Positions 21,396 through 62,594 of a stretch of DNA of 64,000 nucleotides are shown here, in pieces. The stretch is from Paralichthys olivaceus (lineage: Eukaryota; Chordata; Actinopteri; Pleuronectiformes; Paralichthyidae). How positions within the stretch are numbered: position 1 is the first letter of the stretch; every line of letters begins with the position of its first letter. The notes under the pieces were generated by a model. It did no database searches. It saw only the letters and a program-made list of their open reading frames with translations, and was not told the DNA's origin. The position numbers and the translations under genes are program-made. The stretch lies in NCBI RefSeq assembly GCF_024713975.1, contig NC_091098.1, forward strand, positions 14,060,316 through 14,124,315, written 5' to 3'.

Positions 21396-21491
21396 ATAAA
21401 TCCGCTTTTCTTTTCTTTCATTTTCTGCACTAATTTGCAGAAACAGCTCTAAAAACCAGGCGCCCCAGGGAACGGCTCCGTGACGACTGAA

Positions 21492-24044
21492 ATGAAAGGC
21501 AAAGAGCGGTCGCCGATTAAAAAGCGCTCCCGGGCCTTGGACGATATTCGAGACCGAGGAGGATGCCACCCGACCAGCAAGAAAATGGGGGCTCTCTCCG
21601 TTTCCAGTGGGAGTAATAATGGAAACAGCTCGACCAAAGGCGACGGCGGCTCCACGAGAAGGAGTCTACTCGGCGAGAAGAGGGACCGGGATTTCGACAG
21701 TCACAGCCGGACTGGGAACAATCACAGTTGTCAGTCTGCTGCCGCCAGCTCCGTCGGTAAAAACCACAGCCTGAGCCTGACGCTGGATTTAGCCTCGCCG
21801 AGGACCACGTCGCGGGGGGAGCAGCGGGTCCAGCCGCCCAGCACCGAGAGTGAGTACAAGACGCTGAAAATAAGCGACCTCGGCACCCAGCTGAGCGACG
21901 AAGACATAGAGGACGGACTCTTTCACGAGTTTAAAAAATTCGGAGACGTGAGCGTCAAGATCAGCCGCAGCAACGACGAGCGGATCGCGTTCGTGAATTT
22001 CAGGAAGCCGGAGGACGCCCGGGCCGCGAAGCACGCCAGGGGCCGGCTGGTGCTGTACGACCGGCCGCTGAAGATCGAGGCGGTGTACATTAACAGGAGG
22101 AGAAGCCGCTCCCCGGTGGAGAGAGACTTGTACGGTGCAACCCAGAGCCACAGACATTTGCAGAGACCCCTCTCGCCCACGGGGCTCGGGTACAGAGACT
22201 ACCGGCTGCAGCAGCTGGCCTTAGGACGGCTCCCCCCGCCCCCGCCGCCTCCTTTGCCCAGAGAGCTGGAGCGGGACCGGGAGTTTGCTCTGTTTGAAGC
22301 CAGGGCACGTCCAGCTTTCATTGCGGAGCGAGCAGCTTTTCGTGAGGAGGATTTTATCTCTCCGGAAGATGACCAAAGAGCCAACAGGACGTTGTTTTTA
22401 GGCAACCTGGATATAACGGTGACAGAGGCCGACCTGAGGAGAGCCTTTGACAGGTTCGGGGTGATCACAGAGGTGGACATTAAGAGACCCACACGGGGAC
22501 AAACCAGCACGTATGGATTTCTGAAATTTGAGAACCTTGACATGGCTCACCGTGCTAAGCTAAGTATGTCTGGGAAAATAGTGGGTCGCAATCCCATAAA
22601 GATAGGCTATGGGAAAGCAACTCCCACCACACGCCTGTGGGTGGGTGGGCTTGGACCCTGGGTTCCCCTAGCTGCTCTAGCAAGGGAGTTTGATCGTTTT
22701 GGTACTATAAGGACCATTGACTACAGGAAGGGGGACACCTGGGCCTACATTCAGTATGAAAGTTTGGACGCTGCACAGGCGGCATGCACACACATGAGGG
22801 GCTTCCCATTGGGGGGTCCTGAGAGAAGACTGAGAGTGGACTTTGCTGACACTGAACATCGTTACCAGCAGCAGTTTCTGCAGCCTCTCCCTATACCACC
22901 TTTTGACATGGTGGCTGAGTCATTTGTCCACCGTGCCACACCTGAACCACTGAGGGTCAGGGAACGGACTCCACCTCCGCTTCACTTTAGGGAGAGAGAA
23001 CTCTTTCCTGGAACTGAGTGGCCCAACCCAGCTATTCGCGAACGGGTACGTGCCTCACCCTTCGAGCCCCTGGAGCACTTGGAACGCGAGCGGCGGGCAC
23101 GGGAGCCTTGGTCTTTGGAACGAGAGCTGCAGGGACGAGAACCTGTTCGCAAACGGCGTGTAATGGAGGATGGCCGTCACATAGACCACTCCCCTGACAG
23201 CACTGAGAGGACAGTAAGGCGAAGGCGTGCTTCTCCAGATGGCAGTCCTGGAGGTAGCAGCAGAGATGGAGGCCGCTTCAGTGACTCAGAGCGCCCTGTG
23301 CGGGGCGAAAGACCCTCCCCAGTACGAGAACGCCACACCAGCCTGGAGAGAGGTGGCACTGAACGGAGATTAAAAAATCAGAGTCTCTCTGACAAGGCAC
23401 CTTCAAGCAGCAGTGTTTCTGCAGTTGGAGAGCGAAAGCGTAAAGCAGGTGAAGGTGGTAAAGGGCCGGCTAAGAGAGAACGTTCTGAGGGAGGTTCTAA
23501 GGGAGGCCAGCTGTCCAAGTCGGACGGCACCAGACTCAGTTTGGCCTGGCAAGGTATGCTGCTGCTGAAAAACAGCAACTTTCCAGCCAACATGCACCTG
23601 CTGGAGGGTGACCACAATGTAGCCAGTGACCTGCTTGCTGAGGGCACAACGGGGAGGCAGGTGAGCGAGCTAAAGATCACCCAGCGTCTTCGCCTGGACC
23701 AGCCCAAGCTCGATGAGGTGTCCCGACGCATCAAGGTGGCAGGTCCCGACGGCTACGCCATTCTACTGGCAGTTCCCGGCACTACAGAAGATGCATCTTC
23801 GTCTGACCCCGCAGCCTCAACCCAGCGGCCACTTCGGAACCTGGTGTCCTACCTCAACCAAAAACAAGCAGCAGGAGTCATCAGCCTGCCTGTGGGAGGG
23901 AGCAGAGATAAAGACAACACAGGGGTTCTTCATGCTTTCCCTCCCTGTGATTTCTCTCAGCAGTTCCTGGATTCCTCTGCTAAAGCTCTGGCTAAAAGTG
24001 AAGAGGACTATCTGGTCATGATTGTGGTGCGTGGAGCATCTTAA
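21492..24044 (+). CDS. rbm15: RBM15 (OTT1), Spen-family RNA-binding protein
   Basis: An intronless ORF of 850 codons plus stop. A spliceosome- and chromatin-associated nuclear adaptor that recruits the WTAP-METTL3 m6A methyltransferase to RNA and influences splicing and blood development. Domains in order: a low-complexity Ser/Gly/Arg N-terminus, RRM1 (about 122-201, with YKTLKISDLG and IAFVNF), a PPPPPPPLP linker, RRM2 (about 298-374, TLFLGNL and YGFLKF), RRM3 (about 379-452, RLWVGGLG and AYIQYE), an Arg/Ser/Glu-rich region, and a C-terminal SPOC domain (about 676-846, with LKITQRLRLDQPKLDEV). RBM15 rather than RBM15B is supported by the MKGKERSP start and synteny. The start is the ATG at 21492: an in-frame GTG lies four codons upstream, but a stop at 21450 precedes it and there is no earlier ATG. 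The human N-terminal extension, as I recall it, is absent. It ends VVRGAS in the same exon. Confidence 0.97.
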   Translation: MKGKERSPIKKRSRALDDIRDRGGCHPTSKKMGALSVSSGSNNGNSSTKGDGGSTRRSLLGEKRDRDFDSHSRTGNNHSCQSAAASSVGKNHSLSLTLDLASPRTTSRGEQRVQPPSTESEYKTLKISDLGTQLSDEDIEDGLFHEFKKFGDVSVKISRSNDERIAFVNFRKPEDARAAKHARGRLVLYDRPLKIEAVYINRRRSRSPVERDLYGATQSHRHLQRPLSPTGLGYRDYRLQQLALGRLPPPPPPPLPRELERDREFALFEARARPAFIAERAAFREEDFISPEDDQRANRTLFLGNLDITVTEADLRRAFDRFGVITEVDIKRPTRGQTSTYGFLKFENLDMAHRAKLSMSGKIVGRNPIKIGYGKATPTTRLWVGGLGPWVPLAALAREFDRFGTIRTIDYRKGDTWAYIQYESLDAAQAACTHMRGFPLGGPERRLRVDFADTEHRYQQQFLQPLPIPPFDMVAESFVHRATPEPLRVRERTPPPLHFRERELFPGTEWPNPAIRERVRASPFEPLEHLERERRAREPWSLERELQGREPVRKRRVMEDGRHIDHSPDSTERTVRRRRASPDGSPGGSSRDGGRFSDSERPVRGERPSPVRERHTSLERGGTERRLKNQSLSDKAPSSSSVSAVGERKRKAGEGGKGPAKRERSEGGSKGGQLSKSDGTRLSLAWQGMLLLKNSNFPANMHLLEGDHNVASDLLAEGTTGRQVSELKITQRLRLDQPKLDEVSRRIKVAGPDGYAILLAVPGTTEDASSSDPAASTQRPLRNLVSYLNQKQAAGVISLPVGGSRDKDNTGVLHAFPPCDFSQQFLDSSAKALAKSEEDYLVMIVVRGAS

Positions 24045-45600: not shown

Positions 45601-48600
45601 CCCTTAAACCTGGACCTCCTTCCTCACAGTCTATGAAATTCCTGCTGGAAGCCACAGTCAAAGATACACAGCAGTCAGTTCATAAAGAGTGTGTTTGTTT
45701 GACTTTGAGCTTTATCCATGTCTCAGACATGTGTAAGCAGTGTCTTATCTAATAGACATTTGTGCAACAGCTTTCGTGATGAGAACAGCTTTGACCTTCA
45801 TAAGGGACATTAAACAATTACCTATGTTTAAAAAGTATGACGAGGTGAGACAAAAATGAACAGTTACAGTGTTAGATGTGAACTCCAGATAATGTGCAAA
45901 TCAATTTGTCCAGACATTATCCTGACTTTGTCTTTCAGGAGATTATCTGGGTCAGATGCGATTACAACAACAGGAAAATGTCCGGAGTGTTTAGGTGAAG
46001 GGTGGCGCCTGCTGGGTTGATCATAAAGGGGACAGGACATAACGTATAGATTCCTCCACGTGTTTCTGTTAACAGCACATTGATAATGCAGGCTTGCCCC
46101 TTATCAACAAAAGCTCTCAAATAGTGTTGTCTTTCATTCTAACATCTTTGTATCCATTTTGTTTTTTTTTGTTTTATGTGTGTCACATGTCAGAAACATC
46201 ATCATCGTGCCCACTCACTCACAGTCAATTCTCCATAAAATATCCATCTCCACTCTCACATAGGCTCACTCTCCTGAGTTTTAACCAGGGGGCCGGCAGG
46301 AAGAATATCTGCAGACAATGACTCGGATGTTTGTGTTCTCACATAATTTCAGAAGAATATCTGGAGTCCAGTGAATGTCTGAAAACAGCTCTACAGAGTT
46401 AACCAGGGATGGAAGTCTTGTGAAAAGGGTTCTTCCATTAGATATTAGATATTAGATTAATTTAAAATGTTTTAATTAGGGAGGTGAGGTTAAAGAGGGG
46501 ATTTCTGGTTGAACTTCACCTGCTCTTCACAACTAAACACTGTGACACCAATTACAGGACACACCCTTTACTGATCGACCACAAAACAAAACCGTCTGTG
46601 TGTGTGTGAAAATCATGTTTCTCAGACGCCTGTGTATTTATATATGACTGATTGTCTTGTGTAAAAAATATTTAATTCTTTTGTGTAATCTGCTGAACGA
46701 AGTTTTGTTTTTACACTGGTGCTTGTACACATTCCACTGAAGAGATTCAACTCATTAGTGAATTATTGATTGGAGCTGTTTCTGCTTTTCTATTTGATGC
46801 TATGCTACGAGAAGCAGCTCTGCTCATAAACATGATAGTGGTGTTAATCACATCATGTAACCCTAATCAAGAGAGCGAATAGACTTCTGCCACACTATTC
46901 CTTTTAGATGGATAATAACAGCACAGTAGGAACTTTTGACCGATGTGTGCCTCACCTGCCACAGAGATGATAAATGAAGCATCCATGGCATCGATGCCCA
47001 GGGTTCTGGCTCGGGCAGACAGGTGGAAATAAGGGATGAAGTAGGCCAGCTGGCTGAAGACCACGGACCAAGTGTAGATGCAAAAGAACGGGTCCTTAAG
47101 CAGGGAAAAATCCAGTACTTTGGTTTTTCTGACGGCCACCTCGCTGGGTGTGCTGGCATGCGAGGGATGTCCAACAATGGTGGAACCATTCATGCCGCCG
47201 TTGTGCTCGGCTGAGCCGTCCGGAGTGGTGGGTTTACACTGAACCGAGTCATGGTGAGGCTCGTGGCCATTCACACCACTGAGGACCAGTCTGGTCAGTT
47301 CAGGTTTCACTGACTGGTCCTCGGGTCCCTGAGTACATTGGCCCCCCAGGTCCTCAGTGTCCCTGTGAGGGGGAGCAAGGGAAGGGGAAGAGTCTGATTT
47401 GGCGGTGCCATTGGATAAGTGAGAGGAGCCGTTCAAGCAGCCCTTGGTGTATTCCTTCTCTGAGGCACTCTTGAGGGAAACAGCAGGGCTCTTTTGGGTG
47501 GGGGAAGAGGTAGCGTTTGTTACAGGAGGCTTTACATTGATGGGTCGCAGAAGCATGCCAGAGGCCACCAGGTTCAGCATTAGACCTCCAAGAATCAGCA
47601 TCGCCCCTGTGGAACAAAATAAAACTCAACCTTCCACAGAAAATGCTGAGAAAACACTGGCTGCTAATTTTAAAGATTTGTGCTGCCTACCTTGCCAGGC
47701 ATATAGGTCCAGGAGCAGCTGAGTGAACGGGGCAAGGGCAAACGTCAAACCCATCCCAGAACGTCCAATCGCATACGCTGTTGCTAACCTCTTTCGAAAG
47801 TAAAGAGCTGTGACCACTGAGAAGGACTGGTATAGTAGTGCGAAACCCATCCCTAAGTGAAAAAGGTGGTCAAAGAGCATGTCAGTCATAGGAATGTGGG
47901 CAGTCAAGAGAGAGTCGTTCACAAACAATGTCCTTAAATCAGTAGTTGTCAAACTTTTTCTGTCGTGACCCACTTCAGAAGTCACGAATTTGACATATTT
48001 GTGTCATAATGATAGGGGAAACAACACATAAAGAAATTCCAACTTGAATTGAACTTGTTTATTTACCTCCCCTGCCACCCTTGCAGTGGCTGTATGCCCC
48101 CACCCTCCAGTTTGACATCCACCGACTTAAATAGCTGTCCTCATGCAGAGGAGGGCCATAGAAAAACTGTTTAATTTGAGTCTCATTTCAACTCACCAAC
48201 TATCACTCCCATGCTGACGTAGAGGAACACCACGCTGTTTGCTGAAATACTCATGATGAAGCCTCCGCTGACCAGCACCGCCCCAGTGATGGAGGTCACC
48301 CGAGCTCCAAACTTGGCACACGCCACAGAGGCCATGGGTGCTGTAATACACACAGAGGAGGAAGCACAAAACCTCAGGATCTAAATATGTCGCTTGTTTT
48401 CTGCCGTTCATCCTTGAGAGTAAACACGCATGCAGAGGAAAACAAGAGCTAAAGAAGGAGGGAGAATTCAATCAAATGAGCTACATAGACGATGCAGATT
48501 CAAACCTCCAGACAGCCGCATGCTCGACATGATGGAACCAATCCAGCTGATGCTCTCTGCCGAGCCTCCGAAGTCGTCTTGGAAAGCCACAAAGAAGATC

Positions 48601-49403
48601 CCAAAGCTCTTCAGTGTTCCCATCACAAGGACATTTACCTGAGTACACACATGGAAATAATGAGAAACAGACCATCAGCTGCAATTACAGCAACAATTAG
48701 TGTTGACAAAAAGTGGCACAAGTGATGATAAATGTTATTGGATAAGATTTTTCCAACACATTTCTTTTTTGCATAATATTGAAGCAAATTTGTGTAAAAA
48801 TTCCAGAATCTGTTATTTTTTTGAGGTTCAGGATTTAGGATTTAGGATCAATAATCAAAAATTAAATATAATATATTGAATCATTATGATGTTTTCACCT
48901 GAAGCTAAAAATCATCCGTTACCTTAGAATGAGCCTTTTATACTACACAGCTGGTGGGTTGTGTTTCACAAAGTCTGCCATTGTTGCACCTCTACAGTCG
49001 TTCATAACAGATGAATGAACCAAGCAGTGACTCTAGAGATTATTTTATGTTTTTTAATCTGAAGACCATCGTAGGTTCTCCTACATGCTTAAAAGGTGAG
49101 GTGCATTCATTTGGTTGCAATATGCAACTTTACCACTAGATGCCAATAAATCGATCCAACCAGGCATCCATTCTCTATACCTCTTACCCTTTAAGTTTTC
49201 CCATCTGCCATTAGGCAAGAGGTAATACTTTGACATTATTACACTGGATAAGTCACCATCATAATATACACATGAAGTGGACATACCAGGAAGCAATGCA
49301 GCACCACCATCCAGCCCCAGCCTCCATCTGGAGGGTCCTCATATTCGATCTCTTTATCCTTCTCCTTCTTTGAGCTCATGGCGTCCTTCCTGAACAGGTT
49401 CAT
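33414..49403 (-). CDS. slc16a4: SLC16A4 / MCT5, orphan monocarboxylate-transporter-family protein (8 coding exons)
   Basis: Complement join 49403-49287, 48638-48506, 48340-48197, 47852-47691, 47606-46956, 40099-39888, 35736-35643, 33622-33414: 1,722 nt, 573 aa plus stop, all introns GT-AG, frame intact. A predicted 12-helix membrane protein of the major facilitator superfamily; the substrate of MCT5 is not well defined. The N-terminal DGGWGW motif is the MCT signature before TM1, RSGMGLTF lies at TM5, and a long Ser/Asn-rich cytoplasmic loop separates the two six-helix halves (about residues 205-355). SLC16A4 rather than other MCTs is shown by KKYHYHKxYLILCG-like and LYDYTQTY segments and by position beside lamtor5. 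It is longer than the human protein (487 aa as I recall), mainly in the central loop and C-terminal tail. Within TM8 the Asp/Arg pair of MCT1 is Glu406/Gln410; the TM1 Lys is kept (Lys49). Confidence 0.95.
33838..35642 (-). other. slc16a4 intron 7
   Basis: AT-rich, no exon or recognised repeat. Confidence 0.8.
35643..35736 (-). CDS. slc16a4: slc16a4 coding exon 7
   Basis: Residues 474-505. Reads [19 protein letters not shown] then [12 protein letters not shown], the conserved pore-side Gly-Pro-Pro segment of MCTs. Acceptor GCTCTTCAG, donor GTGAGT. Confidence 0.95.
35845..36072 (+). repeat. dispersed repeat family B, copy 2
   Basis: Carries GGCTGGGCAATAAAACG, CAGTGAGGAGGTGTAACACA, AATAATGTGACA and TTTTTGGCC in the order seen in the other copies. 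Lies in slc16a4 intron 6. Confidence 0.7.
37893..38205 (+). repeat. dispersed repeat family B, copy 3
   Basis: Begins GGGTTGGGTGAAAAAAACC and keeps the AAGCACAGTGAATAGG, AGAGCCTTCACTCAATATC and AAAAATAATGTGACATT blocks. More diverged at the 5' end than copies 2 and 4. In slc16a4 intron 6. Confidence 0.65.
38540..38690 (+). repeat. possible retroelement 3' tail
   Basis: Contains TTTCATTGCCAGCGACTG and GTTGTGCATATGACAATAAA followed by CCCTTGAATCCTTGAA. Tails ending in 'TGACAATAAA' plus short TTGAATC repeats are frequent at the 3' ends of fish non-LTR-derived repeats; assigned from memory only. Confidence 0.4.
38985..39140 (+). repeat. fragment of a dispersed teleost repeat
   Basis: Reads CTACAACTATTGGATGAAAT, CTATGAAATTTGGTGCAGAA, CATTATCTCCAGAGAATG. 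I know closely similar sequence as a repeat in many fish genomes; only a fragment is present. Confidence 0.45.
39888..40099 (-). CDS. slc16a4: slc16a4 coding exon 6 (TM8 to TM10)
   Basis: Residues 403-473. Acceptor TTGTTACAG, donor GTAAGG. Contains [12 protein letters not shown] (TM8), [14 protein letters not shown] and the helix [11 protein letters not shown]. Glu406 and Gln410 occupy the positions of the Asp and Arg needed for transport in MCT1. Confidence 0.95.
42963..42975. promoter_or_regulatory. RFX-like X-box in slc16a4 intron 5
   Basis: GTTGCTTAGCGAC is an inverted pair of GTTGC-like half-sites that fits the RFX consensus. It lies just after a possible donor site in the GC-richer patch. 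Function is unproven. Confidence 0.35.
44558..44770 (+). repeat. dispersed repeat family C, copy 3
   Basis: Contains TTGGTTTGTTTGCAAGTAAG, ATTATGCAAAACGTACAGG, ACTTTGTGGAAGGATGCGG, TTTTGATACAGGTCC and GGATCTTGGCAGAGGTATG. This copy keeps the 5' and 3' blocks and lacks much of the interior. Confidence 0.6.
44815..45115 (-). repeat. dispersed MITE-like repeat family E, copy 2 (inverted)
   Basis: Reverse-complement counterpart of 18145-18500, sharing the CACCACAGGAGCAGTATG, CCACGCTGTTTACCCCTGAA, GTGTTTTGTGGATTCAAACA and GAGTAGATAATGAGTGAATT blocks. Confidence 0.7.
46956..47606 (-). CDS. slc16a4: slc16a4 coding exon 5 (TM6, long central loop, TM7)
   Basis: Residues 186-403. Starts [18 protein letters not shown] (TM6), then a hydrophilic loop of about 150 residues rich in Ser, Thr, Asn and His, then [15 protein letters not shown] and TM7 ([17 protein letters not shown]). 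Acceptor TTCCACAG, donor GTGAGG. The loop is where this protein is longer than the human one. Confidence 0.95.
47691..47852 (-). CDS. slc16a4: slc16a4 coding exon 4
   Basis: Residues 132-186. Reads [18 protein letters not shown], then [19 protein letters not shown], the second conserved MCT segment. Acceptor TCACTTAG, donor GTAGGC. Confidence 0.95.
47940..48124. mobile_element. small non-autonomous hAT-like element with 8-bp TSD
   Basis: Ends are CAGTAGTTGTCAAACTTTTT and, inverted, CGGTGGATGTCAAACTGG: 13 of the first 16 positions match and both resemble the CAGNGGTTCTCAAACTTT tip of Charlie-type hAT elements. Flanks are CCTTAAAT (47932-47939) and ACTTAAAT (48125-48132), a 7/8 match of the length hAT transposases duplicate. 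185 bp, no ORF, inside slc16a4 intron 3. Confidence 0.75.
48197..48340 (-). CDS. slc16a4: slc16a4 coding exon 3
   Basis: Residues 84-132. Encodes [20 protein letters not shown], then [12 protein letters not shown] and [13 protein letters not shown] (TM3-TM4). Acceptor TATTACAG, donor GTGAGT. Confidence 0.94.
48506..48638 (-). CDS. slc16a4: slc16a4 coding exon 2
   Basis: Residues 40-84. Completes TM1 ([19 protein letters not shown], with Lys49 matching the essential TM1 Lys of MCT1), then [19 protein letters not shown] (start of TM2). Acceptor ACTCAG, donor GTTTGA, which is weak. Confidence 0.93.
49092..49155 (-). repeat. repeat family A fragment
   Basis: Inverted remnant with ATATGCAACTTTACCACTAG and ATGCCAATAAAT, matching the 5' third of the element at 27987. 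The remainder is missing. Confidence 0.55.
49287..49403 (-). CDS. slc16a4: slc16a4 coding exon 1 (start codon)
   Basis: Residues 1-39; the exon itself begins at 49419 after a TTCTTCTAG acceptor, so at least one non-coding exon lies upstream. Starts [17 protein letters not shown] and reaches the DGGWGW signature. A second in-frame Met at residue 9 is possible as an alternative start. Donor GTATGT. Confidence 0.93.
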
Positions 49404-49419
49404 GGCTGCCTTTGTTTCA

Positions 49420-52400
49420 CTAGAAGAAAATAAAAACTTATATTGTTTTCAGGTCAGACTGGATAATCGGAAGCATCCACAATCACGTGGTAACATGAAT
49501 ATAAATAGAAATAGGTGCAGCATTTGAAGGTCATGTTTAAGATTCATAGAAAATAAACAAAAAAACGTTCATGTGGTAACTAACATGGTTTCACAGTTGA
49601 ATCCGCATATTATAGCTTTTCACATTTTTAAGAAAAATATAAAGCATATAAGAGTTTTCTTTCTTAAAAAAAGCTCAACTACTTTTAAATCAATCACTGA
49701 TATTGTTATTTTTCTTTTCACTGCCATTGCTTCATACAACCACCTAGAAACCTGCACATCAAAAACTTGTTTTCATCCATTGGCATCAATTTGATGCTTT
49801 GCTGACGACAGACCACGGTATTATTGTATGTGTATTGTAACTTGTTAAGTCACTGAGCTGTGAAACTGCTCAGTTACAGTGCAGTTTCACCAAAGGACTC
49901 AGCAGTGTTAACATTAAGTGTGACTGAGCAAGTGCAATATTTAAGCTCCCTGTCAGCATGTAACAGCATGTATAAATGTGCTTTGATGATGATGATGTCT
50001 CATGATAATTTAATCTGTGAAAGGAAAACTCTCTGGCTTTTCAAGGAGGTGGTTATACAAAGTTATCTGGAAACCTTGCAGAGTAAAACAAGGAAACCCT
50101 TAGTCATTCACACTCAGTAACCAGAAGAAGCGTTTGAACAACTTGAAACCACACAGTCGAAAAACATGACTGACTTGCTCAAATTTACACTGCTGTTTCC
50201 GTCAGAACCGGAATTTAATTATTTTGGATAAAAGGACTTGAAGCCCTGTGGCATTTTTTTCCTTCTCATGCTGTCATAGCAAAGCCTTTATCATGCACAT
50301 ATGATGTAAGAGTTGGTGGTTGTAGCAATGTGCTCTAAAAGGCCGGGACGATGTCTACTGGAACGCAGACAAGGATGTAAACAATACACATCTAAAACCC
50401 GTCCTATATGGATGGAAATGTTCACACAACCATTTAAAAGATCTCAAGGGTACATACAGTAGAAATGGTTCTGATGGGAAAGAGAAAGAAACCCTTTCTT
50501 AGGAGACCTATATAGTACATTTAAAAACATTGAAATTAACAGGCTATATAAATGTGTGTTCACACTCATGGTCTGTAGGAAATGATGTTTTTATTGTCCA
50601 ATTGCAGTGGAGGGTCAATACACTGCATTAATAATACCATGTATTTTTGGTGTGCATAATGTTTTGCCATGTGTTTTGTGTTTGTGTACAGTATATGTGT
50701 AACATATGACTTAAGCCTTAAGTATGCAACTTTCCTTTGAGAGGAAAGTCAGGAGCTACATGTTTCTGCCTGTGATGTGACACAACTGCACTGCAGTTTG
50801 CAAACCAAGCAGGCAGACTGTGACCTTGAATTTAACCTGGGTAATAACTCCCTCTGCAACAACTTACAATTTATATATGTGTACTGATACTTTGATCTCA
50901 TCTTATTTGTCTCTTTCCCCTCAGACCTTCTCTTCTGAATTCTGAAAATTAGATTTTTGAAGAACCAAACATTTAAAATTATCGCAAAAAATACGAAATT
51001 CTTCGTTAGTCAGCCATTCAAGACATACATTAGAACGACATTGTGACACCTGCCAATATAAAATTGATCAGATTGGCAGTTTAATACATATTAAGGTCAG
51101 GTGAGTTTACTTTAAATGTGCTGCAGTCACTCCAGTCTTAGGGCCAGGTCACACATACGCAAATGCAAAAGGTATTTCGCAGGTCAAAGTTCACCAAAGT
51201 TGAACAGCACATGAAGCCACACTACGATTTGCTTTGCTAGAGGATGCAAATGTTTTACCTCTTCCTCGCTCACAGAGATTGGAAGTGAACCGGAGGAGAA
51301 GGTTTGCTGCTGATATGTTCATGTGACTGGGCCTTTGCTCTGAACCTGTCACATATGGGATTGGTCAGGACCCCTTGGCATCACGCACCGTGTCTTTTTA
51401 TCACTTTTCAATGTGCAGGAAAGTCCAATACGCCTCCAATGTTGTTTAGTGCATTGAAAGATGAAGTAAATCAATATGTCTGCCTATGTTTGTGGAAAAA
51501 AAATCGCAAAATAGCTCACAGTGAATATTGTTCTTTTTTAAAACACTCTACAGTGTTTTCCTAAACTTAACAAATTGTGTATGTGGATCAGAGTCGTTCC
51601 TCATCTGCCTGAATCCCACTTTAACCTCTGAGTATAATAATGTGCCAACATGTCCTGAGTTAACATGCTTTTCAAGATAATAAATCGCGGTGTGGTGACA
51701 TGTGTGTAGCTGTTCTCAGGTCTGCGTGTGCGTCAGCAAGTAATTAAATTGAAACGTCTGTTAAAAACAGTCTTTCCCAACCACCTTGTCAACACATGGA
51801 GAATGTATAATAAAACCTCGCCTCAGATACGGAAAGTCACCTTGAACACAGTAGGAGAAGGGGGCATAATAAACCAGTGGCGTTCAGCACTTACTCAGTC
51901 TGACTTAAACCTGCATAAAAAGCCGTGACCAAATTAAGGAGAGAGCAGAGAGCGGATTAAAAAGGGGAATGAATTGGGCCAGTGTACTGTGGGGAAAATA
52001 TTTCCCCCATGTGCTGTTCACAAGTTGTCCTCAGAGTGTGCTTTTGTGCATGTTTGTAAACGTGCCGGAGTTGCGAGGGTTGGAGCTGTGGAGGATTGTG
52101 TTAACACCATGTTACTGCACACTACCAGCAGGACATATGGAATGAATGTTCTCCACATTCTGTCTCCATTTGACCTACATTCCATTTTTAGAGATATACA
52201 TTTAAAAATGTATTTCCTGCGGGAGGAAGGACTCACACAGACAATGAGATGCCACTCAGATCTTCTGAAAGTCTGATTCAGGAGTTCAAAAGGGAGTACC
52301 TCTCTCAGTTAAACAGAGTGGGCGCCAGGAAAAAGACACGCAGGGCCAGTAAAAACTTTATGGATTTTTGATGGTCCATTGCCTCCAATGGTACAGGTTT

Positions 52401-58154: not shown

Positions 58155-58215
58155 TCAAGATGCTATCTTGTGAACCGCCACTGTGATGGTCCCATGACTC
58201 CTCACCAGAATGTTT
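58155..58215 (-). CDS. lamtor5: lamtor5 coding exon 4
   Basis: Acceptor TTTTTTTGTAG, then [19 protein letters not shown] and TGA. Residues 72-91 (Gly72 is split across the intron). Confidence 0.95.
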
Positions 58216-61208
58216 CTACAAAAAAACAGAATGAAAAGTTAATATATGGTAAGATTAGTGTGAAAAATTTTTTTGCACATGATTAGACTCCAGGTCCAGT
58301 GTGTAAGATTTAGGTGAAAGGGAACTATTAGGAGAAATTTAACATAGAATAATCCTCATGATGATTTCAATAGTTAATTTAATCTAAATTGTATGAATTG
58401 TAGTTTTCTTTACCCCAGAAAAGGCCCTTTATATTTAAATACTTTATATGTACATGGAGGGGACCCTCTATGGAGGCACCCATGTGTTTTACATTAGTCC
58501 AGACTTGACAAACTAAACACCTTTTGAGTTTTTATGACAACTGAAGCTACCACAGGTTCTTTTTCACTTTCAGAAGGGGATTGTGAGGTGAGGGGTGTTC
58601 AGCTGCAACATGCAACTTCAACACTAGATATCACAAAATTCTACACACTGAACCGTTAATTTGTAAATTAGATCAAACCAATACTGACACAACTTATTAG
58701 TTGAGTAATTTTGTTATGGTATTTAATCATTAATAATCAGAACAGAAAAAGCACACCACCAGCTGAGACTTAATATCTGTCCTGATCATTCATTTTCATT
58801 CATATTAATGCTCATTGATTTGCACCTTGTTGACACATGTAGAATAAATCTATCTAAGGTCCATGGTTTAATATGACATCTTCCTCATCTTCATTTATGT
58901 TGAAGTATTAAGTATTGTACAAGTGCAGCAGATGATGTTTTACAGCGTCCAGAGGGTGGCAGCATAACCACACAAATGACAAAACACTCCTGTGCCAAGA
59001 CTTTTGAGCAGAGGCGTTCATTCTTTGATTCTGGATCATTCTCAGCAGCTTTTCTAGATTTACTGAGCTCGACAAGCATTCATCAAAATAACCACAGAAA
59101 AAAATGTTGGATTAATGAAAACTGAGAAAACGGAGAACAGGTGCAACAAAAGACAAAAGGTCTGTGCTCACCCTGACTCAGACTCCAGGCACACAGTCGG
59201 AGCGTCTGTTGGGTCTCTGGAGAGAGCTGCAGCTTGTTTGGCCAGAACTGACACAACACCGCCATGTTCATCAGACAGCGAGCCGCGGCCTGGTGATTTG
59301 TGAAATTTAAAGGAATGTCACAGTGAAATACTTGAGACACATCAATCATAACACAAATATGGATTCAACTTATTAATAACTTGTTATTTACAATTTGTTT
59401 ATTTCTATTGGAAGCTAATAGCTGCCTTTAACACTTGAGAAGTCAAATCAACATGTTTTTGTCATATTTCTCATTTTACAATTGGGTTTTTGTTGAGACA
59501 AAACAAACCAGATCTTATATGAAAATTAGTGTTGATTTCAGTGATGCTGTCTCTCAGATTTTGTTACCTTTAGACAGACCCAGGCTTTATCTGTCCCCCT
59601 TGTCTCCCTGGGTTTCTATATTTAAGTATAACTGAGAAATAGCAAAAGTAAACACAATGTTTGTGTCTTTCTTAGTGATAGAGGGATTTTCAGCTTGGTG
59701 GCTGCAGTAATCTGGTTGATAAATGTATTTACTTTCAACACAAGTTATCTATACTGCTATTCCAATATTTCAAATACTATTTATACCAACAATAAATCAG
59801 GGTTCTATAAAGCAACATAATCAGTCAATTGTGTATGTTTCATGTGTAGAAAACAAGTAGTGAAACATAACTAACTACATTTACAATTTTTCCACCTCTA
59901 CTTTGCAGATATACAAACTATACTCCACAAATTTAATATGACGAATAATTTTAGATTAAGTTCATCCTGCAGTTTTACTTCAAATAATTTACTTCAACCA
60001 TTAACAGTTTTTAGTCAAACATAAAGATTGGCCCTTTCCACCTGGCTTTAAATTTAGGTTGCCCCATGATTTTATTTATATTACCTCTGGCAAGGTTGTT
60101 TTTTCAACCATGTTTGCTGTTTGCTAGTTTATTTGTGAGCATGTTTGCACAAAAATTGATTTTTGTGCAAACATGCTGGAGGGGTGGGGCCTGGGCCTGA
60201 GAAGAACACATTACATTTTGGTGTGGATGTGGATTAAGGCAGGGGGTTCTCGAAGTGGGGTCTTTTTGCCAGGGTCTTGGACAAAAAAGGGGAATCATTT
60301 ATTTTCACCATATTTTTATCCTTATGTAACACACTGACAGAATGTTTGACTATTTTGAAATTGAAGTCCTTCTTGTAATACAATCTTGTCAAATGGGGGT
60401 CTGTTGTATAGATAGTGTACTTTCAAGGATCCTTGAAGTGCAAAAGTTTGAGATCAACTTGATTAAGGGGCAGATCCAGGATTTATGGCAAATAAATCAC
60501 CTTTTCTTTTATATTTCTACAGTCAGAACTGGTCAATCATGTGCAGGATTAATTGGCCATGGCAGAGTTATGCTCTCTATCAAGTGTCATTCTTTTCAAA
60601 GCATTTTTACTGCATTCATATATTTTTAAATTTTCTCTTAAATCTCAAATTTCTCTTGGATTGACTTCCCTTTTATCATGGCACTAACTGTGTCTTTGCA
60701 TATTCTTCTATTGCTATTGTGCAGTGACTGTAAAGCATGTATGGTCAACACCAGTAGTTTTTAAATGTGCATAACAATTATCTATATCTGAAGTTAGGAC
60801 TGGGCAATAAAACAATATCACAATATAATTCCAATAAATAGTTATATAACAAAAGTTCAACATATATGGATATAATGCCAATGCATTGTGCAAACAGTGA
60901 GGAGGTATAACACATAATTGATCCACCTCAGCTTTGTAAAATGTTGCTTAAAATCACAAATCTATACATTTTACATTTGAATCAGTATTACTAGTATTAC
61001 TTTTGGGGGATTTGACAGCAGCAAACACAGTTTATTTAAAGCTCAGCCGACAGATTTGACTTCTCCTTCGGTCAGAGGTCAGTTTGGTGAGAAGACATTT
61101 CAGAGCTCACACAGAACAAGAATCTGACTCAGTGTTTACTTACAGCCCAGGTTGTGTCCTTGTTGGTCCGTGCAGAGCACACCGACAACTGCTGGGTTCT
61201 TCATGCTG

Positions 61209-61266
<58 letters not shown>

Positions 61267-61281
61267 AGACACACACACAGA

Positions 61282-61344
<63 letters not shown>

Positions 61345-61371
61345 ACACACACAGAGACAGACAGACAGACA

Positions 61372-61441
<70 letters not shown>

Positions 61442-61544
61442 GAGAAAAGTCGTGTTTAACACCAAACCATCTCACACACGCCCTCACACACAGGCTGGTG
61501 TTCACCTACGTGTCATCCAGGTGCTGCTCCAGAGTCGACTCCAT
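58155..61544 (-). CDS. lamtor5: LAMTOR5 (HBXIP), Ragulator complex subunit (4 exons)
   Basis: Complement join 61544-61510, 61205-61144, 59289-59172, 58215-58155: 276 nt, 91 aa, the same length as human. A roadblock-fold subunit of the pentameric Ragulator, which anchors Rag GTPases on the lysosome and supports amino-acid signalling to mTORC1. Recognised by [53 protein letters not shown] and the C-terminal [10 protein letters not shown]. All introns are GT-AG and the frame is intact. The second Met (residue 13) begins exon 2 after one base. Intron 1 is only 304 nt and about three quarters of it is a TG array. Confidence 0.96.
58291..58659 (-). mobile_element. MITE-like repeat family A, copy 2 (inverted)
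   Basis: Ends AGGTCCAGTGTGTAAGAT and, inverted, TTAACGGTTCAGTGTGTAGA. The interior mirrors 27987-28374 (AAACACCTTTTGAGTTTT, CAACTTCAACACTAGATATC). Lies in lamtor5 intron 3. Confidence 0.75.
59172..59289 (-). CDS. lamtor5: lamtor5 coding exon 3
   Basis: Acceptor ATCACCAG, then residues 33-72 ([19 protein letters not shown] through VCLESES), donor GTGAGC. Carries most of the roadblock-fold core. Confidence 0.96.
60075..60600 (+). repeat. dispersed repeat family C, copy 4, near full length
   Basis: Starts TACCTCTGGCAAGGTTGTTT, continues with GGGGTGGGGCCTGGGCC, GAAGAACACATTACATTTTG, GGGGCAGATCCAGGATTTAT and ends GGCAGAGTTATGCTCTCTAT. A hairpin occupies the position where other copies carry the GCAAGATTACGCAAAAA block. 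Confidence 0.6.
60138..60177. repeat. near-perfect inverted repeat, 18-bp arms
   Basis: Arm AGCATGTTTGCACAAAAA (60138-60155) and its exact inverse (60160-60177), separated by TTGA, whose outer bases can pair too. Confidence 0.95.
60797..60960 (+). repeat. dispersed repeat family B, copy 4
   Basis: Contains GGACTGGGCAATAAAACAAT, GTGCAAACAGTGAGGAGGT and ATAACACATAATTGATCCACC in the order of copies 1-3; the 3' half is missing. Confidence 0.68.
61144..61205 (-). CDS. lamtor5: lamtor5 coding exon 2
   Basis: 62 nt, residues 12-33 ([20 protein letters not shown] and GC). The acceptor is TGTGGCAG, directly after the TG array; the donor is GGGCT|GTAAGT. Confidence 0.95.
61210..61438 (-). repeat. (TG)n array forming most of lamtor5 intron 1
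   Basis: On the plus strand (CA)n with GAGA and (CAGA)n interruptions, 229 bp. Read on the coding strand it is TG/TC-rich and contains no AG before the acceptor. Confidence 0.97.
61510..61544 (-). CDS. lamtor5: lamtor5 coding exon 1
   Basis: 35 coding nt, [11 protein letters not shown] plus two bases of Thr12, donor AC|GTAGGT. Confidence 0.94.
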
Positions 61545-61740
61545 CTTTAACACAGGCAGAAACTTCAGAAACAACAAGTTCTGCTCGAAAAGTTCTTCTT
61601 GTTGTGGCTCACTGCAGCTTCCTCACAGCTTCCGGCTGCAGTCAGGTGACCATCACATGGTCTACGGGTCCCTATGAGGAGCAAACTGCACGGAGCGCGA
61701 TTTAATACGAGTTTAAACAAGACGGAGCAAAGTGAGATGT
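61545..61740 (-). promoter_or_regulatory. lamtor5 5' UTR / promoter interval
   Basis: Moderately GC-rich between the start codon and the TAGA array. It includes an ETS-type CCGGAAG on the coding strand (about 61629-61635). The start site is not resolvable. Confidence 0.45.
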
Positions 61741-61889
<149 letters not shown>

Positions 61890-62508
61890 GGAAAGATGTT
61901 CATGTCTTTTCACTAAGAAATGAAATCATGTCTAGAAACAAAAATAAACATTTGTCCCAATCATGACAGAGTAACGATTCAGCATGATAAACACTTTAAA
62001 CTTTGACCAATGCAATGCAAACTTTACCAATTAGTTTTCTTTATTGTTCATAAAGGTGTTAATACAATCAGTATAAATCAGACAACTTTTATGATGGATT
62101 TCGGTAATGTGTTGTTCTTAAAGTCGGCCGCTGGCCAACACCAGTTGGCTCACGTCCCTGCATGATTTCTGCTGCCTGTCCCGACACAGTGAGGCTTCAC
62201 CGCTCCTGCTGACGGGGCAGAAAAGGCTGAATGTAATTATGTGGCCACTGCATTGGAGGAATCCATCACCTGTGCAGCAGCAGGATACTGTCCCACTGAC
62301 TAACTCATGGGATACACAGCCCCTCCTCTTTAATTCTTCTCTCTCTTCCTCCCCTTCTCTATCACTCATATTTCTTTTTCCACTGCTTAAATCAGCAGAG
62401 CCCGGCCGCCTCCGCTGACAGCCTGCTGCCCATCACTGTCCGAGCATACACGTAGACAAACACACTCATACAGGTGCAGGTTTACACATCTGGCAAAATA
62501 TCTTCTTC

Positions 62509-62594
<86 letters not shown>

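Follow-up and report, generated by a model that had tools for sequence, protein, structure and literature searches.

How is a 3' splice site recognised when the last part of the intron before it is almost entirely a microsatellite? The question is raised by lamtor5 of Paralichthys olivaceus, which lies on the minus strand of the 64,000-nucleotide stretch analysed here (contig NC_091098.1 of assembly GCF_024713975.1, positions 14,060,316 to 14,124,315 of the forward strand; hereafter the window, with positions counted from its first letter). Intron 1 of this gene measures 304 nt, of which 229 are a TG array detected by Tandem Repeats Finder (TRF), both figures agreeing with a preliminary description of the window that had been made from the letters alone. 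We consider it probable that intron 1 is a minimal intron carrying a TG expansion, with a distant branch point and a second splicing step that spans the repeat as a spacer. The gene model on which this reading depends is complete: all four coding exons were recovered by tblastn, and when joined they give a 91-amino-acid product in which every junction is in frame by translation. Pfam family PF16672 (LAMTOR5) covers this product with its whole profile (1-88 of 88, E 1.5e-33), and the peptide of exons 1 and 2 matches solved LAMTOR5 chains (phmmer, E 1.2e-15). The coordinates of the gene and of the elements of intron 1 are collected in Table 1.

The array holds 12 C interruptions and three long tracts of pure GT, 33, 28.5 and 27 repeats in length, and it ends a single base (G61209) before the acceptor CAG, rather than three bases before it as first estimated. 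The preliminary description had reported no AG between the acceptor and about 61472; indeed, the next AG upstream is at 61472-61471, 265 nt away. Adenosine is missing as well, from 61449 to 61208 (242 nt), and neither strand of the window has a longer stretch free of A; the second-longest on the same strand (83 nt) is likewise a TG array. Since microsatellites arise by slippage, base composition is unfit as a null model for such figures, and it is the placement of the array that matters. Among the 3,950 YAG words on both strands of the window, the intron 1 acceptor ranks first by A-free length (242 nt, the next being 39) and first by AG-to-AG distance (265 nt, the next being 220). The other two lamtor5 acceptors are ordinary, with the next AG at 41 and 72 nt and the nearest A at 3 and 15 nt.

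Table 1. Features of lamtor5 and of its first intron, in positions of the window
Feature	Position	Strand	Basis
lamtor5 exon 1, coding part, last codon split	61510..61544	-	tblastn and translation; phmmer with exon 2
lamtor5 intron 1, 304 nt, GTAGGT...GGCAG	61509-61206	-	sequence
5' splice site of intron 1, AC/GTAGGT	61504..61509	-	preserves the LAMTOR5 frame
Predicted branch-point zone with five adenosines (+53 to +60); A61456 in TGTTAAA is the best candidate	61450..61457	-	sequence; branch function predicted
Polypyrimidine tract CTTTTCTCTCC, immediately downstream of the branch-point zone	61439..61449	-	sequence
TG microsatellite, 229 nt, C-interrupted, A-free and AG-free	61210..61438	-	TRF and scripts
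Acceptor CAG of intron 1, sole AG in the last 265 nt of the intron	61206..61208	-	sequence scan
lamtor5 exon 2, 62 nt	61144..61205	-	tblastn and translation
lamtor5 intron 2, 1,854 nt	61143-59290	-	exon model
lamtor5 exon 3	59172..59289	-	tblastn and translation
lamtor5 intron 3, 956 nt	59171-58216	-	exon model
lamtor5 exon 4, coding part including stop	58155..58215	-	tblastn and translation

Where, then, can the branch point lie? Besides the A of the acceptor, intron 1 contains 13 adenosines, none of which is closer than 244 nt to its end. They comprise one in the donor (+3), seven at +8 to +40 and five at +53 to +60 (A61457, A61456, A61455, A61453 and A61450), with CTTTTCTCTCC directly after the last of them. 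If the minimum of ~50 nt given for the distance between a 5' splice site and a branch (PMC6093180) is valid here, the seven adenosines at +8 to +40 are too near the 5' splice site, and a branch point 244-251 nt from the intron end appears nearly forced; a closer one would be possible only at a nucleotide other than adenosine. The earlier proposal, in which the array is an AG-free spacer behind a distant branch point, thus gains support and comes close to a deduction from the sequence, because the array is free of adenosine and no A branch can come closer than 244 nt to the intron end. The pyrimidine run placed beyond the array is also present, although at 61449-61439 rather than at about 61438-61448, one base off. 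In contrast, the idea that the repeat replaces the polypyrimidine tract has to be given up: an 11-nt tract persists beside the candidate branch adenosines, the AG alone being remote, so that the tract, as we read it, is displaced and not replaced. The best candidate, A61456 in TGTTAAA, matches TACTAAC at four of seven positions, with T at -2 and with an A rather than a pyrimidine after the branch; A61453 also matches at four of seven, without the T at -2. A fold of the 71-nt core of the intron that would join the branch and the splice sites was considered and rejected, being no better than shuffled sequences (z -0.36; 67 of 200 shuffles at least as stable).

Subtraction of the array returns both the intron length and the branch-to-AG spacing to normal values. 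The remaining intron measures 75 nt, and the five candidate adenosines then lie 15-22 nt from its end, to be compared with the peak of short teleost introns at ~76 bp (PMC9438311) and with the optimal human branch-to-AG distance of 19-23 nt (PMC9508853). Because both values match, array expansion inside a minimal intron is the simplest and most likely history: a short TG run between the pyrimidine tract and the AG of a ~75-nt lamtor5 intron would have expanded. Intron 1 without its array is thus like the minimal introns of teleosts, but unlike them it carries 229 nt of repeat that push the AG far away, and it is a first intron, a position in which introns are usually not minimal.

Such an expansion would have kept the 5' splice site, the branch adenosines and the pyrimidine tract together as a ~70-nt platform for the assembly of U2 and U2AF, with the AG alone moved off. 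In the first step, an adenosine in 61457-61450, best of all A61456 in TGTTAAA, would serve as the branch with U2AF on CTTTTCTCTCC, which is feasible if U2AF65 bound to the 11-nt tract suffices without U2AF35 at a nearby AG; UG-binding helpers, for example PUF60, possibly occupy the array. In the second step, the first AG downstream of the branch would be the annotated acceptor, 244-251 nt off, reached across a spacer that contains neither a rival AG nor another adenosine, and exon 2 would be included efficiently. Alternative acceptors were rejected on both sides: the next AGs, within exon 2, would cut off 7, 14 or 17 nt and break the frame, and use of the upstream AGs of intron 1 would leave an intron of less than 40 nt. 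Short GT repeats were reportedly predicted as intronic splicing enhancers in fish by Yeo et al. in 2004, which fits lamtor5 but is unspecific. PUF60 is described as having a higher affinity for TGTGT than for T5, and in GANAB exon 6 use of the natural 3' splice site is reported to depend on a UG-rich segment just past two distant branch points (PMC6093180). Moreover, SDE2, CACTIN and TLS1 are reported to help branch-distant acceptors in S. pombe (PMC9508853), and human poly-UG tracts of at least 12 repeats to be enriched near splice sites (PMC12276007). If the branch lies as predicted, intron 1 would be a clean natural test of how the second step locates an AG that is remote from the branch, the spacer being a near-single repeated motif, free of competing AG or adenosine, whose length should vary among individuals. 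Living animals could then allow exon inclusion to be related to branch-to-AG distance while almost everything else stays constant, and an essential exon would be seen to tolerate, or to be tuned by, a mutable spacer.

Intron 1 most likely adds an extreme case, created by a microsatellite in a minimal intron, to the distant-branch-point class, and does not point to a new mechanism. Membership of this class is recognised by an AG exclusion zone (AGEZ) of 100-150 nt or more and by a candidate branch with an adjacent pyrimidine tract at the far end of that zone and none near the acceptor; the AGEZ of lamtor5 intron 1 is 265 nt, and its only such pair is at the far end, with a weak branch motif. 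Comparable values are given for human GABBR1 exon 23 (AGEZ 287, branch at -275) and human PTB exon 11 (AGEZ about 380, branch at -351), and the branch of Fugu PTB exon 11 is predicted at -566; an AGEZ of at least 150 occurs in 165 of the 67,334 exons in the data set of Gooding et al. 2006 (all PMC1431707). With PTB exon 11, GABBR1 exon 23 and alpha-tropomyosin exon 3, lamtor5 shares the long AGEZ, the remote branch candidate and pyrimidine tract and the lack of an A near the acceptor; unlike in those exons, its spacer is a TG microsatellite, the intron is otherwise minimal, the exon is expected to be constitutive and the branch motif is both weak and predicted. The exons activated by PUF60, GANAB exon 6 and OGDH exon 4b, are described as similarly combining a distant branch, pyrimidine- or UG-rich sequence after it and a long AGEZ, and in OGDH, as in lamtor5, the branch zone is near the minimum distance from the 5' splice site (PMC6093180, PMC7969005). 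They differ in composition, GANAB having a 27-nt UG and a 40-nt UC segment and OGDH a ~65-nt mega-polypyrimidine tract (megaPPT), whereas lamtor5 has 11 nt of pyrimidines followed by 229 nt of TG, and a role for PUF60 in lamtor5 would be by analogy with these accounts.

Several points weigh against placing the branch so far from the acceptor of a minimal intron. The 11-nt pyrimidine tract is modest for a first step without a nearby AG, and all candidate branch words are weak, none exceeding the four-of-seven match to TACTAAC. The experimental distant-branch-point exons cited by Gooding et al. are all alternatively spliced (PMC1431707), whereas no functional lamtor5 mRNA is expected to do without exon 2. 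In teleosts, a length above 256 bp is reported to be markedly commoner among first introns (PMC9438311), and a first intron of minimal size is therefore not what one would expect by default. Finally, a repeat-made AG-free zone is by itself no proof of a distant branch, since Gooding et al. present a case in which a repeat makes an AGEZ of 369 and yet the only good branch site is at -17 (PMC1431707); in contrast to that case, lamtor5 intron 1 has no A as near as -17.

The strongest rival, to which we grant a substantial but clearly smaller chance, is that the array is a neutral passenger or that its length is specific to this assembly, being tolerated or simply wrong while splicing is unaffected. 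TG arrays are very common, roughly 3,000 of them abutting CAG genome-wide, this locus has three microsatellites within 1.4 kb, and the length of the array rests on one assembly. However, neutrality is compatible with the distant-branch reading, for even a neutral array leaves only distant adenosines, and an artefact would have to amount to an error of about 200 nt to restore normal spacing, while the C interruptions would argue against simple stutter.

The genome-wide figure comes from a count, over the whole assembly (588 Mb, 25 contigs), of TG arrays of at least 14 repeats with CAG within two bases. Such arrays are followed by CAG 1,912 times on the forward and 1,518 times on the reverse strand; the forward rows listed include double entries and the reverse rows listed none, so reverse counts were compared, and about 3,000 is a fair estimate once double entries are allowed for. 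CAT follows 1,769 (forward) and 1,328 (reverse) times and CAA 519 and 448 times. In a backwards control, the words CAG, CAT and CAA gave 927, 911 and 914 forward and 1,095, 1,231 and 1,094 reverse matches, of which the lower, forward counts were taken, assuming that the doubling is mirrored. The ratio of CAG to CAT after arrays is 1.14 (reverse counts) against 1.03 in the window, and that of CAG to CAA is 3.4, a mixed outcome as regards an excess at acceptors; a CA-array control (12,939 and 7,047) is confounded, the array itself supplying CA. After TG arrays, CAG and CAT each occur about three times as often as CAA, and the backwards words before arrays are about equally frequent, an asymmetry of microsatellite flanks.

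The first 30 loci of the 3,430 matches, a non-random sample that lies entirely on contig C1 of the assembly, yielded 25 distinct junctions, at which the A-free length is at most 128 nt. An open frame runs to a donor-like word at five of the 25 (L010, L013, L027, L031 and L036). Four of these frames were searched against Pfam, L010 being too short, with no match for L027, L031 and L036; L013 gave two matches, both below the curated cut-off, to Adt-1 (E 1.1e-4, 22.8 of 31.8 bits) and to Salp15 (E 0.037), the latter taken as chance, and neither the L013 nor the L031 peptide had a PDB or NCBIfam match. The open stretch of L013 (C1 near 3358049-3358081, minus strand), presumably ADAMTS-like, begins right after the TG array and CAG, and an AC repeat lies just past its donor-like GTACAA, a possible case of an AC/GT-flanked exon. 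L013 is thus a possible comparator within the genome, with the array in place of a pyrimidine tract before a putative exon start, and L031 may be a second, without a family match. Judged by reading, one or two of the 25 junctions look like exon starts, none of them with an above-threshold family match, and by this proportion the genome would hold, very roughly, 100-250 TG-array acceptors. Few of the ~3,000 CAG-abutting arrays appear to be acceptors; the arrangement is therefore probably recurrent, with lamtor5 as its extreme case.

Could the length of the array regulate the gene? Skipping of exon 2 does shift the frame, as had been foreseen: 17 amino acids are followed by a stop that ends at nucleotide 54 of the coding sequence, and because this stop lies 99 nt before the exon 3/4 (last coding) junction, the skipped mRNA should undergo nonsense-mediated decay (NMD). 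If intron 1 is retained, the reading frame closes after codon 12. At the 5' splice site, tandem donor-like words stand 4 nt apart (61500-61510, minus strand; AC/GTAGGT and TAG/GTGAAC), and use of the second, GTGAAC, 4 nt downstream, leads to an in-frame stop after codon 12. An early stop thus results from skipping, retention or use of the +4 donor alike, as would suit a regulator in which TDP-43 or CELF binding, or the branch-to-AG distance itself, causes exon 2 skipping or intron 1 retention in longer alleles and so tunes lamtor5 output via NMD. We regard this as unlikely. It draws support from reports that an extended UG tract at the 3' splice site impairs CFTR exon 9 recognition via TDP-43 (PMC12171016), that S. 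pombe removes introns poorly when the branch-to-AG gap is longer (PMC9508853) and that human exons with an AGEZ of at least 100 show more cassette-type alternative splicing (PMC1431707). The parallel with CFTR, already drawn in the preliminary description, is a loose analogy: both genes have a TG tract near an acceptor, and in both skipping would be harmful, but the order is reversed, the 11-13 repeats of the (TG)m(T)n element in CFTR intron 8 preceding the T tract (PMC12171016) and the ~100 repeats of lamtor5 following the pyrimidine tract at 61449-61439, which lies upstream of the array. Moreover, a core Ragulator gene should face selection against a large loss of product, polymorphism of the array is itself only an expectation, and tuning is not to be assumed for any polymorphic microsatellite.

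Doubtful, and somewhat more so, is the proposal that the array is itself the working polypyrimidine-like tract, bound by PUF60 or CELF in place of U2AF, and that it contains, near the AG, a branch at C or U rather than at adenosine. Non-A branch points, which this proposal requires, are rare, and an intact module of branch candidates and pyrimidine tract stands directly upstream of the array. In its favour, L013 has a TG array between TATAAC and its putative exon, with no separate pyrimidine tract; likewise, the reported preference of PUF60 for TGTGT over T5 and the UG-rich tracts that precede PUF60-activated exons would suit it (PMC6093180, PMC7969005).

Long TG tracts can affect transcription through Z-DNA or nucleosome exclusion, and a role of this kind at the DNA level, with the intronic place incidental, seems improbable here, even though the array begins ~105 bp past the start codon, in intron 1, and more microsatellites are present upstream at 61741-61897 and 62511-62592. 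More speculative still, the UG spacer might fold into up to six poly-UG (pUG) quadruplexes that shorten the 244-251-nt gap, TDP-43 opening the gap again, so that repeat length and TDP-43 level would together set the efficiency of the second step; we give this very little credence. The pUG fold calls for at least 12 GU repeats, and each of the three pure tracts has at least 26.5, leaving room for up to six 12-repeat folds; the ViennaRNA energy of the array is 0.0 kcal/mol, from a program that does not model this fold. GU repeats of at least 24 are reported to form double pUG folds slowly, and (GU)36 and (GU)50 double and triple ones (PMC12276007); any single uridine of the fold is described as replaceable, multiple uridines not being replaceable by cytidine (PMC12962679), and a preprint reports that TDP-43 binds unfolded but not folded UG RNA (PMC12697283). 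Against such folding stand an in vitro half-life of 13 minutes or more (PMC12276007) and the report that kinetics favour TDP-43 binding at nuclear concentrations (PMC12697283), which together make folding before splicing doubtful.

Introns with AC and GT repeats were reportedly described in fish by Lin et al. in 2016. That lamtor5 intron 1 belongs to this AC/GT-bridged class, in which U2AF2 is replaced by base pairing, across the intron, of an AC repeat with its GT complement (summarised in a review, PMC7404189), has a negligible chance and was rejected: half of the architecture is supplied by the GT array at the intron's 3' end, but the defining complementary AC repeat near the 5' splice site is absent, the longest AC alternation being 4 nt in the 71-nt rest of the intron and 6 nt in 58155-61700, and the duplex between core and array is predicted at -21.0 kcal/mol, a value that 157 of 200 mononucleotide shuffles of the core equal or surpass in stability and that compares with -80 for an (AC)20 control.

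The gene itself appears to be single copy in the assembly, because exon sequence was matched at its locus only and both protein matches fall within it. A DNA search found 20 matching places, of which 19 matched the array alone, and a protein search found two, in exons 2 and 3 of lamtor5; the latter search missed the short exons 1 and 4, so that a very short or diverged copy could escape it. A lamtor5 paralogue was accordingly rejected, and one scan each of viral and prokaryote contigs found no lamtor5 relative. A cluster of TG-type blocks at C23:179864-181016 of the assembly (L003, L004, L007 and L008 among others) is 80-87% identical to the lamtor5 array. Upstream of the gene, a TATC array of 157 bp (61741-61897, TRF) begins ~200 bp before the start codon, and a second TG array of 82 bp follows at 62511-62592, giving, with the array of intron 1, the three microsatellites within 1.4 kb. 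At 61641-61650, ~100 bp before the start codon, the minus strand reads GTCACCTGAC; this differs by one base from GTCACGTGAC, the CLEAR/TFEB consensus of lysosomal genes, lamtor5 itself being a gene of the lysosomal Ragulator.

Elsewhere in the window, several exon-like open stretches at 46870-49448 on the minus strand resemble an SLC16 monocarboxylate transporter, and the motif DGGWGW at 49242-49448 is, we assume, that of this family; the three pieces searched had no Pfam match and the one compared with the PDB had no match there, the DGGWGW piece not being among those searched. An open stretch of 863 amino acids at 21453-24041 on the plus strand contains three RRM_1 stretches and a SPOC domain by Pfam, and is presumably RBM15/SPEN-like.

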